Source: Prevotella melaninogenica (GTDB taxonomy: Bacteria > Bacteroidota > Bacteroidia > Bacteroidales > Bacteroidaceae). Taken from it: a stretch of DNA of 64,000 bases. The translations under genes were made by a program, and so were the position numbers. The notes under the pieces were generated by a model. That model was not told the origin of the DNA and did no database searches. It saw only the letters and a program-made list of their open reading frames with translations. Location: NCBI RefSeq assembly GCF_018127925.1, contig NZ_CP072347.1, positions 1,242,501-1,306,500 on the forward strand, given 5' to 3'. The stretch's first letter is position 1; each line of letters opens with the position of its first letter. Below are positions 2,498 to 64,000 of this stretch, one piece after another.

Positions 2498-3565
2498 CTA
2501 TCCTTCTCCTGTAAACTGCTTCAGACGCTGCTCTTCAGAAAGGCGACAAATAAGCAATTTACCATCCTGTTCAGCTACAATATAGCCATCAAGACCTTGG
2601 ATAACCACCTTACGTTCCTCCGTTGTATGTACAATACAGTTCTTACTATCAAACAGATGAACATCATTACCAATAACAGCATTACCGTAAATATCATGCT
2701 GTGTCTGGGCAAGCAACGAGCCCCAAGTTCCTAAATCACTCCATCCAAAGTCTGCAGGACAAACAAATATCTCTTCAGCCTTTTCCATAATAGCATAATC
2801 GACAGAGATATTCTCACACTCAGGATATACCTCATCAATCACGCGTTGTTCATCGACTGTATCCAAGACATCCATGATACGCTCGAAAATTCTTGCTATA
2901 CTTGGTTGATAGATACGGAAAGCATTGACAATAGTAGAGGCACTCCAAATAAAGATTCCTGCATTCCAGAAGAAGTTATTCTGCTTGATATATTGTTCTG
3001 CTGTTGGTAAATCAGGCTTCTCACGGAACTGATCAACACGATAAATCTCGCGATTACGCGCTGAAGCTGTTGAAAGGTCAGCTTGTATATAGCCATAACC
3101 CGTCTCTGGGCGTGTTGGTTTCATACCCAAAGTAACCACAGCATCCGTTTCTGCAGTAAACTTCAAACAGTTAGAAATAACACGTTTGAACTCCGTTTCA
3201 TTGGTCACAATATGATCACTTGGTGACACCACGATATTAGCCTTTGGGTTTTCTTTCTTGATACGCCAACTCACGTATGCAATACAAGGTGCTGTATTAC
3301 GACGGCAAGGCTCGCTCAAGATGTGATTCAAAGGTATCTCTGGGAGCTGTTCATGAACTAAAGAGACATACTTTTGGTTCGTGACAACCCACACATTGTC
3401 AGAAGGAACAACACCTGCAAAGCGATCATAGGTCAACTGGATGAGTGATCTACCTACTCCTAAGACATCAATAAACTGCTTAGGACAGTCTGCAGTACTC
3501 ATCGGCCAGAATCTACCTCCTACGCCACCTGCCATAATGACGAGATGATTATCAGTTTGCGCCAT
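2498..3565 (-). CDS. manC: Mannose-1-phosphate guanylyltransferase
   Basis: This enzyme makes GDP-mannose from mannose-1-phosphate and GTP, feeding cell-surface glycans. The 355-residue length fits the short form, which lacks the C-terminal phosphomannose isomerase domain. The nucleotide-binding signature GGVGGRFWP lies at residues 13-21 with CPKQF just after. Other family motifs are RRNTAPCIAY, SPSDHIV, RPETGYGYI, FREKPD, WNAGIFIW and DFGWSDLGTW. It has its own promoter (3595-3625) and downstream hairpin, so it is probably monocistronic. Confidence 0.93.
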   Translation of the reverse strand: MAQTDNHLVIMAGGVGGRFWPMSTADCPKQFIDVLGVGRSLIQLTYDRFAGVVPSDNVWVVTNQKYVSLVHEQLPEIPLNHILSEPCRRNTAPCIAYVSWRIKKENPKANIVVSPSDHIVTNETEFKRVISNCLKFTAETDAVVTLGMKPTRPETGYGYIQADLSTASARNREIYRVDQFREKPDLPTAEQYIKQNNFFWNAGIFIWSASTIVNAFRIYQPSIARIFERIMDVLDTVDEQRVIDEVYPECENISVDYAIMEKAEEIFVCPADFGWSDLGTWGSLLAQTQHDIYGNAVIGNDVHLFDSKNCIVHTTEERKVVIQGLDGYIVAEQDGKLLICRLSEEQRLKQFTGEG

Positions 3566-59968: not shown

Positions 59969-62900
59969 TTTGCGAATTGCTTCAAAATGTGTATCTTTGC
60001 ATTAGCACGTACAACCTACGGTATTGTTTTTCCCGCTCCGTATGGGTTGTGAATTGCTTCAAAATGTGTATCTTTGCATTAGCACGTACAACCGACTTTT
60101 CAATGACAAACCTATCCAAGTGGTTGTGAATTGCTTCAAAATGTGTATCTTTGCATTAGCACGTACAACAGAACTAATGATACCGAGATAAGCAGAACGG
60201 TTGTGAATTGCTTCAAAATGTGTATCTTTGCATTAGCACGTACAACTATAAAGGAGAATTAACAAGCGCATCACGAGTTGTGAATTGCTTCAAAATGTGT
60301 ATCTTTGCATTAGCACGTACAACAGAGGGTTAGCATAATCAGAAGACCCGTACGTTGTGAATTGCTTCAAAATGTGTATCTTTGCATTAGCACGTACAAC
60401 CCAGATTGCTCTAAAGTCAATCTAATCCATGTTGTGAATTGCTTCAAAATGTGTATCTTTGCATTAGCACGTACAACTGCTCTTCTATATTGAATGTACA
60501 ATAATCGTTGTGAATTGCTTCAAAATGTGTATCTTTGCATTAGCACGTACAACAAGACCACCGCGAGAACCAAGAGCCTGTCCGTTGTGAATTGCTTCAA
60601 AATGTGTATCTTTGCATTAGCACGTACAACCTGCATATAGCGTGCAAAGTTTAGTAACCGTTGTGAATTGCTTCAAAATGTGTATCTTTGCATTAGCACG
60701 TACAACAGCTATTCTCTTAGAACGAGCATCTTCTTTGTTGTGAATTGCTTCAAAATGTGTATCTTTGCATTAGCACGTACAACCTTCGTGCTTCTGATTA
60801 TCTTCGTAAGTAGTTGTGAATTGCTTCAAAATGTGTATCTTTGCATTAGCACGTACAACGAGTTTAACGCCTGCCCACTGATACCTAAGTTGTGAATTGC
60901 TTCAAAATGTGTATCTTTGCATTAGCACGTACAACACGTCCATCGTAGACATTGACCCGTTAACTGTTGTGAATTGCTTCAAAATGTGTATCTTTGCATT
61001 AGCACGTACAACTCCAAGTTTTAGCTTTATTTCTCGGCTCATGTTGTGAATTGCTTCAAAATGTGTATCTTTGCATTAGCACGTACAACAGCCTCAACCG
61101 GGGTTAAATCTTGTTCGTTGTTGTGAATTGCTTCAAAATGTGTATCTTTGCATTAGCACGTACAACAATAGTTCCCACAGAAGCAGACAAATACGCGTTG
61201 TGAATTGCTTCAAAATGTGTATCTTTGCATTAGCACGTACAACAATTTCTCCTGCGGCTAAAATAGGGTTATTGTTGTGAATTGCTTCAAAATGTGTATC
61301 TTTGCATTAGCACGTACAACTCGCATGTTAGAATTTGCAGTCAATTCACCGTTGTGAATTGCTTCAAAATGTGTATCTTTGCATTAGCACGTACAACCTG
61401 GACGCTTATGGGGGCAAAGCCCCCTATAGTTGTGAATTGCTTCAAAATGTGTATCTTTGCATTAGCACGTACAACAGGCGCATCATACTTTAACGAAAAG
61501 TTGTTGTTGTGAATTGCTTCAAAATGTGTATCTTTGCATTAGCACGTACAACTTACCGTTTTTAGCAGTAACAGTTGCATCAGTTGTGAATTGCTTCAAA
61601 ATGTGTATCTTTGCATTAGCACGTACAACTTTTGCAAGATTTCTCCCGTAATCTCTTGGTTGTGAATTGCTTCAAAATGTGTATCTTTGCATTAGCACGT
61701 ACAACTGCTATCGCTATGGGGGCAAAGCCCCCTATGTTGTGAATTGCTTCAAAATGTGTATCTTTGCATTAGCACGTACAACCGAGCATAACAACAGTAA
61801 GGCGCAAGGTGTGTTGTGAATTGCTTCAAAATGTGTATCTTTGCATTAGCACGTACAACAAGCAAACGACACCACCATTTTTATAAGTAGTTGTGAATTG
61901 CTTCAAAATGTGTATCTTTGCATTAGCACGTACAACAGAGAACGGAGCAGAGAGGGCAGCTACACTGTTGTGAATTGCTTCAAAATGTGTATCTTTGCAT
62001 TAGCACGTACAACTACCACTTGAGATAATTCTGCATACGAAGGTTGTGAATTGCTTCAAAATGTGTATCTTTGCATTAGCACGTACAACATATATTCACG
62101 CCGCAGCTTCGTCGGTGTAGTTGTGAATTGCTTCAAAATGTGTATCTTTGCATTAGCACGTACAACAGACGTGAGAGTATCTGCAGTTGAGCAGAAGTTG
62201 TGAATTGCTTCAAAATGTGTATCTTTGCATTAGCACGTACAACTATTAGCAGAGACGAAGTCTGTATCATAAGGTTGTGAATTGCTTCAAAATGTGTATC
62301 TTTGCATTAGCACGTACAACAAAAAAGAAAATAGAATCCGCTCTGCAGAAGTTGTGAATTGCTTCAAAATGTGTATCTTTGCATTAGCACGTACAACTAT
62401 ACTCACGTCTCAGCTTAGTTGGAGTAGTTGTGAATTGCTTCAAAATGTGTATCTTTGCATTAGCACGTACAACGCTATCGCTATGGGGGCTTTCAGCCCC
62501 CTAGTTGTGAATTGCTTCAAAATGTGTATCTTTGCATTAGCACGTACAACAAGTCCTTTACCTGCAAGGTCACCAAGCTGGTTGTGAATTGCTTCAAAAT
62601 GTGTATCTTTGCATTAGCACGTACAACAAGTAGTTTCACGCTGTTTAGAGCGGAAAGTTGTGAATTGCTTCAAAATGTGTATCTTTGCATTAGCACGTAC
62701 AACATTATGACAAAATTCACCAAGGCAAACTGGGTTGTGAATTGCTTCAAAATGTGTATCTTTGCATTAGCACGTACAACAAATTCTTTAGGACTTACAG
62801 GAACAGTTAAGTTGTGAATTGCTTCAAAATGTGTATCTTTGCATTAGCACGTACAACCAAAGCGTGCATATGTTGACGCTTAGTATTGTTGTGAATTGCT

Positions 62901-63703
62901 TCAAAATGTGTATCTTTGCATTAGCACGTACAACACCAGCAATCAGAGAGAGAAGCAACAAAACGTTGTGAATTGCTTCAAAATGTGTATCTTTGCATTA
63001 GCACGTACAACTTGAAAATGTTCAGAGGGGTTACACTCCCAGTTGTGAATTGCTTCAAAATGTGTATCTTTGCATTAGCACGTACAACTATCATATGCAC
63101 GTTGAGCAGCATCGTTGGGTTGTGAATTGCTTCAAAATGTGTATCTTTGCATTAGCACGTACAACTGCTGCTTCTCCTCAAACTCTTTGCGCTGCGTTGT
63201 GAATTGCTTCAAAATGTGTATCTTTGCATTAGCACGTACAACCACCAGTAGTTTCTTCAGCTGTTTTAATAGGTTGTGAATTGCTTCAAAATGTGTATCT
63301 TTGCATTAGCACGTACAACAAGCTATCACGAGTTGAGCGTTTACTCATGTTGTGAATTGCTTCAAAATGTGTATCTTTGCATTAGCACGTACAACATATA
63401 CTCACGTCGTAACTTAGTAGGAGTGGTTGTGAATTGCTTCAAAATGTGTATCTTTGCATTAGCACGTACAACGAAGCTATCACGAGTTGAGCGCTTACTC
63501 ATGTTGTGAATTGCTTCAAAATGTGTATCTTTGCATTAGCACGTACAACCGATTGACGAAACATAGCGTCAATAGTATCGTTGTGAATTGCTTCAAAATG
63601 TGTATCTTTGCATTAGCACGTACAACGGAGTTGAGCGGAAGTAACAAGACCATTTGGTTGTGAATTGCTTCAAAATGTGTATCTTTGCATTAGCACGTAC
63701 AAC
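59969..63703 (+). CRISPR. Type II-C-like CRISPR array: 49 repeats, 48 spacers
   Basis: Repeat length is 47 bases; it starts GTTGTGAATTGCTTC and ends TTAGCACGTACAAC. I located every repeat: the first is 59969-60015, with changes at positions 1 and 5; all others I compared, including the last (63657-63703), match the consensus. Spacers are 30 bases in 38 cases, 29 in nine and 31 in one. Long repeats with GTTGTG starts and ACAAC ends are typical of Bacteroidetes type II-C systems. Each repeat carries TTG (positions 2-4), 19 bases, then TATCTTTG (24-31), a Bacteroidetes promoter. The array converges with cas2 at the right. No tracrRNA anti-repeat was seen in the window. ORFs across the array are artefacts of the repeats. 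Confidence 0.98.

Positions 63704-63803: not shown

Positions 63804-64000
<197 letters not shown>

Follow-up and report, generated by a model that had tools for sequence, protein, structure and literature searches.

Three spacers of one type II-C CRISPR array appear to have been taken from a single site in one phage gene, sampled in at least three diverged alleles; the sequences of the guides and of their target support this reading. The array offers a well-resolved example of how CRISPR re-samples phages of a fast-evolving group. A second result, more striking than the first, goes beyond the original observation and concerns strand: guides of this array and of related arrays that match single-stranded DNA phages pair almost only with the coding strand, which is the reverse of the published type II trend and merits a survey.

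The array occupies the end of the window, by which we mean the whole 64,000-nt stretch of DNA that was analysed, and is followed by the first of its cas genes:

59969..63703, + strand: type II-C CRISPR array with 49 repeats (47 nt each) and 48 spacers; its crRNAs are read from the + strand
63804..64000, - strand: 3' part of cas2; the gene extends beyond the window end, and cas1 and cas9 lie beyond the window

The spacers are 29-31 nt long and span positions 60016-63656. Forty-eight of the 49 repeats are identical, the first alone departing from the consensus, at two positions, and each repeat carries a TAnnTTTG box, a Bacteroidota promoter element. Adjoining the array, on the single strand opposite to it, cas2, cas1 and cas9 (1423 aa) form three overlapping open reading frames. 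In profile searches Cas9 matched TIGR01865 at 336 bits (cut-off 100), and Cas1 and Cas2 matched type II profiles. Such overlapping cas2-cas1-cas9 frames with type II profiles indicate a type II-C arrangement, and neither csn2 nor cas4 was found among the cas9-cas1-cas2 genes at the locus; the array belongs to a complete type II-C CRISPR-Cas9 system. Genome-wide, the 32-nt repeat core occurs in this array only and there is one copy of cas1.

Upstream of cas9 we identified a candidate tracrRNA (L007 5886-5968) with hairpins and a terminator (fold z -4.79). The stretch before its hairpins pairs with the 5' half of the repeat in + orientation, ranking first of 6782 windows at -19.9 kcal/mol, a small margin over the next at -19.0, and the candidate ranks low against the repeat in the opposite orientation. 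An ungapped scan for a tracrRNA anti-repeat had missed it. By this predicted pairing, the candidate would provide the tracrRNA with anti-repeat that is looked for in a type II-C system. Because it pairs with the + repeat, we read the crRNAs as the + strand of the window. A CC flank on the targets then lies on the 3' side of the protospacer, where Cas9 needs its PAM; this independently supports the + orientation.

The three spacers at the centre of this study are the following:

62090..62119, + strand: spacer 28, whose reverse complement codes for TPTKLRREY; matches the IME-16 pilot gene at 8 mismatches
62398..62426, + strand: spacer 32, a synonymous allele of the TPTKLRREY site; matches IME-16 at 5 mismatches
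63396..63425, + strand: spacer 45, a synonymous allele of the TPTKLRREY site; matches IME-16 at 6 mismatches

On re-extraction of the array, the positions of these spacers and their shared TPTKLRREY frame agreed exactly with the preliminary description. At aligned positions the guides differ by 6 (28/32), 8 (28/45) and 5 (32/45) bases. Its statement that they differ at synonymous positions only holds within the nine TPTKLRREY codons, where all of the 6, 7 and 4 differences, respectively, are synonymous, and the leucine and arginine codons it quoted as examples are correct. It had also ruled out chance, and rightly so: when sharing a peptide was defined as at least eight aligned residues with at most one different, none of 24,000 comparisons between the 48 spacers here and 500 spacers from other same-genus arrays reached this level, which excludes coincidence for the triple. 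The 500 spacers, drawn from 53 loci with some arrays represented in part, cover 32 of the 33 further genomes in which the repeat had a match. On the PAM-proximal side the differences fall at positions 4, 7 and 10 (28/32), 1, 4, 7 and 10 (28/45) and 1 and 7 (32/45), all third codon positions within the seed; PAM-distal differences are present too.

All three guides match Microviridae IME-16 (KM276541) at position 594, in the frame TPAKLKREY of gene M16p1 and with the flank TATCCC. The IME-16 site departs from TPTKLRREY at two residues and is 5-8 bases off the three guides. For spacer 28, 8 mismatches alone are not significant, since 4 of 144 shuffles reach 8, and a peptide score of 40 carries the match. 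M16p1 is 26-29% similar to proteins of the group, some of them annotated as DNA pilot protein, and on this similarity we consider it a putative DNA pilot protein gene; NCBIfam and PHROG models did not recognize it. M16p1 is also matched by spacer 26. The protospacer in IME-16 is thus homologous, coding, in frame and flanked by N4CC, rather than lying in unrelated, non-coding or differently framed sequence, in agreement with the proposal that one site was taken from at least three diverged lineages of one phage family. Three allelic protospacers with a common PAM had been predicted as well, and this was borne out in part: the homologous IME-16 site with N4CC exists, but three exact allelic protospacers were not found. 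The exact degenerate TPTKLRREY pattern had no match in IMG/VR contigs and the relaxed pattern matched IME-16 only, while across 299 same-genus genomes the exact pattern occurred in this array only. Scanning IMG/VR with a capsid alignment turned up no relative, and the pilot protein as query gave IME-16 again and nothing else. A blastn search with spacer 28 alone returned hits at E 2 or above only; the one microvirus record taken forward from it, PQ006681, lacks a good copy of the site. The exact TPTKLRREY pattern also occurs in three Alteromonas-like contigs from GTDB genomes, which we took as chance matches given the distant hosts. Contigs with IME-16 as best hit have been described from saliva viromes (PMC6022446). 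The target assignment links IME-16-like microviruses with a Bacteroidota host from the mouth and predicts an N4CC PAM for the Cas9 of that host.

The rest of the array points to the same phage group. A blastn search of the whole array against phages matched 18 records, mostly microviruses. Against 25 microvirus reference records (L021, a copy of IME-16, was excluded), 20 of the 48 spacers matched at no more than 7 mismatches and none of 144 shuffles did; peptide matches at a score of at least 39 were likewise obtained for 20 of 48 spacers, and for 1 of 480 shuffles. The union of nucleotide and peptide matches assigned 25 of the 48 spacers to microviruses. The type II-C array has a 3' PAM, N4CC: of the 20 matches at no more than 7 mismatches, 15 carry CC at positions 5-6 (1.21 and 1.42 bits) and five do not (spacers 4, 29, 35, 42 and 43). 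An earlier study of P. intermedia reported matches for 9 of 105 spacers and did not settle the PAM (PMC5608340). Further spacers with mapped targets are:

63320..63348, + strand: spacer 44, site MSKRSTRDS in the microvirus major capsid, 3 mismatches to PV594039
63473..63502, + strand: spacer 46, the same capsid site MSKRSTRDS as spacer 44, 4 mismatches to PV594039
62167..62196, + strand: spacer 29, SAQLQILSR of the major capsid; its phage site overlaps that of spacer 48
63627..63656, + strand: spacer 48, NGLVTSAQL of the major capsid, at a distance of 16 nt from where spacer 29 matches
61937..61966, + strand: spacer 26, SVAALSAPFS of the IME-16 pilot gene, with 10 of 10 residues
62858..62887, + strand: spacer 38, exact match to saliva microvirus OR149014, within its replication initiator gene
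61706..61735, + strand: spacer 23, identical to a hairpin that two human microviruses carry, PV067920 and PV067922
61398-61428 and 62474-62503: spacers 19 and 33, matching variants of the spacer 23 hairpin

Spacers 44 and 46, with MSKRSTRDS in the target frame, are the one further pair here that passes the shared-peptide test. The C-rich hairpin downstream of the pilot gene is a second site sampled three times (spacers 19, 23 and 33). Separately, in the rodent microvirus PQ006225.1 (L013), one of the 18 records matched by the whole array, a stretch at 3085-3117 resembles the 5' part of the CRISPR repeat, with 19 nt exact, and stands directly before a terminator-like hairpin, as in a solitary repeat-like RNA; it matches the repeat and no spacer, is absent from the other phage records and, at E 0.3, may be a chance match.

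Taken at face value, the triple looks like ordinary immunity against fast-changing phages. We consider it very likely that the array records repeated immunisation against Bacteroidales microviruses, with synonymous escape followed by re-capture of the N4CC site. The type II-C system of a (probably) oral Prevotella would have been immunised again and again against these diverse, small single-stranded DNA phages. An IME-16-like lineage would return with synonymous changes in its pilot gene that leave the older guide mismatched in the seed, and the acquisition machinery, confined to the N4CC sites of a genome of about 6 kb, would retake the protospacer from the new allele; the seed mismatches are presumed to break immunity and so to favour re-capture. 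Matched spacers become denser toward cas2 (4, 8 and 13 per successive 16) and the imperfect repeat is at the far end, so the order of acquisition was probably 28, 32, 45. Successive guides would then have tracked one phage site allele by allele, making synonymous seed changes a likely escape route. In a Legionella type I-C priming experiment two independent spacers likewise fell on one protospacer, but that case involved one plasmid sequence in the laboratory and a type I system, whereas here the alleles are diverged natural ones of a phage and the system is type II-C (PMC5071653).

How often one site would be hit three times by sampling alone bears on whether uptake there exceeds what genome size and PAM impose, through a hot spot or through Cas9-primed acquisition, in which cleavage directed by an earlier, imperfectly matching guide would steer new uptake to the site; we regard either as unlikely but worth weighing. 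With about 150 N4CC sites on one strand and 25 draws, at least one triple has P=0.09; once 75 or 350 sites are also considered, the probability of one triple spans 0.02 to 0.91, depending on how many spacers derive from this phage group and how many sites are usable. The 25 mapped spacers hold two groups of three and one pair, and at least two triples would arise with P=0.002 for 150 sites and 25 draws; uniform sampling fits poorly at 25 draws because of the hairpin group (19/23/33) and the 44/46 pair. If most spacers came from this phage group, however, 48 draws over the same 150 sites would give at least one triple with P=0.48 and at least two with P=0.12, and the second group is a C-rich hairpin in which several PAM registers are available. 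Spacer 35 matches a nearby homologous stretch in the pilot gene of another lineage, and same-peptide pairs occur in five other loci (the repetitive L063 excluded) and, once in addition to an identical pair, in P. nigrescens, as a preferred site would lead one to expect; these pairs also indicate that re-sampling is not special to this array. Against a preference for this particular site, none of the 500 spacers of other same-genus arrays carries the TPTKLRREY peptide.

The preliminary description had also suggested that guides against an essential protein motif were retained, and the synonymous nature of every nine-codon difference among the three guides would fit this. Comparison gave no support for an essential motif, however: five related pilot proteins have other residues at the aligned place, and synonymous-only change over nine codons is expected from ordinary purifying selection between close lineages, which makes such retention improbable. 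Hardly any weight can be given to the last alternative, that one spacer was copied and then drifted within the array. Spacer duplication does occur, as the identical spacers 52 and 54 of P. nigrescens illustrate, but array DNA keeps no frame, and yet the nine-codon differences are all synonymous in the phage frame, a pattern that in practice refutes drift; the identity of 48 of the 49 repeats is likewise contrary to it. Repeated immunisation with re-capture from changed alleles is the reading we retain.

The strand on which the guides pair was counted in three sets of spacers. At no more than 6 mismatches, 49 of 53 DNA matches pooled over the sets have the guide paired to the coding strand of the phage: 14 of 14 for this array, 24 of 27 for P. 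nigrescens FDAARGOS_1486, which has 73 distinct spacers, and 11 of 12 for the 500 spacers from other same-genus genomes; no shuffle matched in any set. By peptide, coding-strand pairing was seen for 19 of 20, 23 of 25 and 15 of 18 matches, respectively, the P. nigrescens tally (23 to 2) counting its identical spacers 52 and 54 twice; the corresponding shuffles gave 1 of 480, 1 of 370 and 2 of 1000 matches. Spacers 1 and 42 of the present array match in plus orientation at 7 mismatches, outside the tally at no more than 6, and the union of 25 mapped spacers comprises 23 on the minus and 2 on the plus strand. Spacer 1 (60016-60045), which lies at the old end of the array, is clearly an exception in the coding sense: 9 of 9 residues agree with the IME-16 replication gene, and the flank has CC.

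PAM composition accounts for this lean in part at most. Against a null built from flank profiles, which were trained on the hits themselves, and with hairpin spacers and repeated sites collapsed, we obtained P 3e-3 for the collapsed ORF sites of this array (null 0.58), 1.4e-5 for P. nigrescens (null 0.48) and 0.046 for the mixed set (null 0.62), so that the mixed set is weak alone. On their plus strand the 25 records contain more TGG than CCA, and a strict N4CCA PAM would therefore weaken the lean of this array. Since microviruses encode their genes on the virion strand, the coding, virion and mRNA senses are indistinguishable here. The same arrays yielded no confident matches to double-stranded DNA phages as a control, and the lean could thus be a property of these hosts in general. 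As its cause we also considered an RNA-targeting effector that uses the array as well; searches for Cas13b and Csm1 found neither in the genome, which has one cas1, although among the controls the Cas13b model matched only once, below its cut-off. Tentatively, and with somewhat less than even confidence, we suggest that Prevotella type II-C arrays take or keep anti-microvirus guides almost only against the coding strand, either because Cas9 acts on a single-stranded phase or because capture is coupled to it. That phase could be incoming or displaced virion DNA, or mRNA, and only one guide orientation would then pay; the smaller choice of usable sites would also aid re-sampling of minus-strand PAM sites.

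Published strand counts differ from ours. Type II spacers showed a modest template-strand preference over mixed targets, 59% for II-A, in a study that, like this one, counted the strands of spacers within open reading frames; here 49 of 53 matches are to the coding strand, and single-stranded DNA phages are the only targets (PMC8482600). For the II-C system of F. columnare, the mRNA-targeting share of phage spacers was 0.319 by total counts, and about half in earlier natural isolates (PMC8092290). Some II-A and II-C Cas9s are reported to cut single-stranded RNA, and SauCas9 cut more than 80% of single-stranded DNA in vitro (PMC5796797); counter to the single-strand idea, Cas12a guides to invasive single-stranded DNA were unprotective (PMC9226536). 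Among the literature matches listed, titles and the opening parts of abstracts mention no such lean against single-stranded DNA phages, which is no proof of novelty. Found here, in P. nigrescens and more weakly in the mixed arrays, the lean makes it testable whether natural Cas9 immunity acts on single-stranded nucleic acid.

Finally, in a search of a plasmid collection, the P. nigrescens array was the only full-length similar array, alongside one weak hit; this likeness is the ground for placing the present host, with probability, in Prevotella. Like the array described here, it has 47-nt repeats that start with GTTGTGA and contain TATCTTTG, spacers of about 30 nt, an adjoining cas2, many microvirus spacers and the coding-strand lean; it differs in repeat sequence, in a flank profile with no CC and in the microvirus relatives matched. 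In that array (L092, NZ_CP082843.1 508500-516500), peptide comparison assigns 25 of the 74 spacers to oral microviruses; 52 and 54 are the identical spacers noted above, and spacers 51 and 72 overlap on a single site. Another same-genus array (L037/L074, G378 contig 30) has two spacers on one IME-16 pilot-gene site, AEDIKNKKI/AEDIKNKRV, and also a near-synonymous pair, GSVVKIPNS/GSEVKIPNS.
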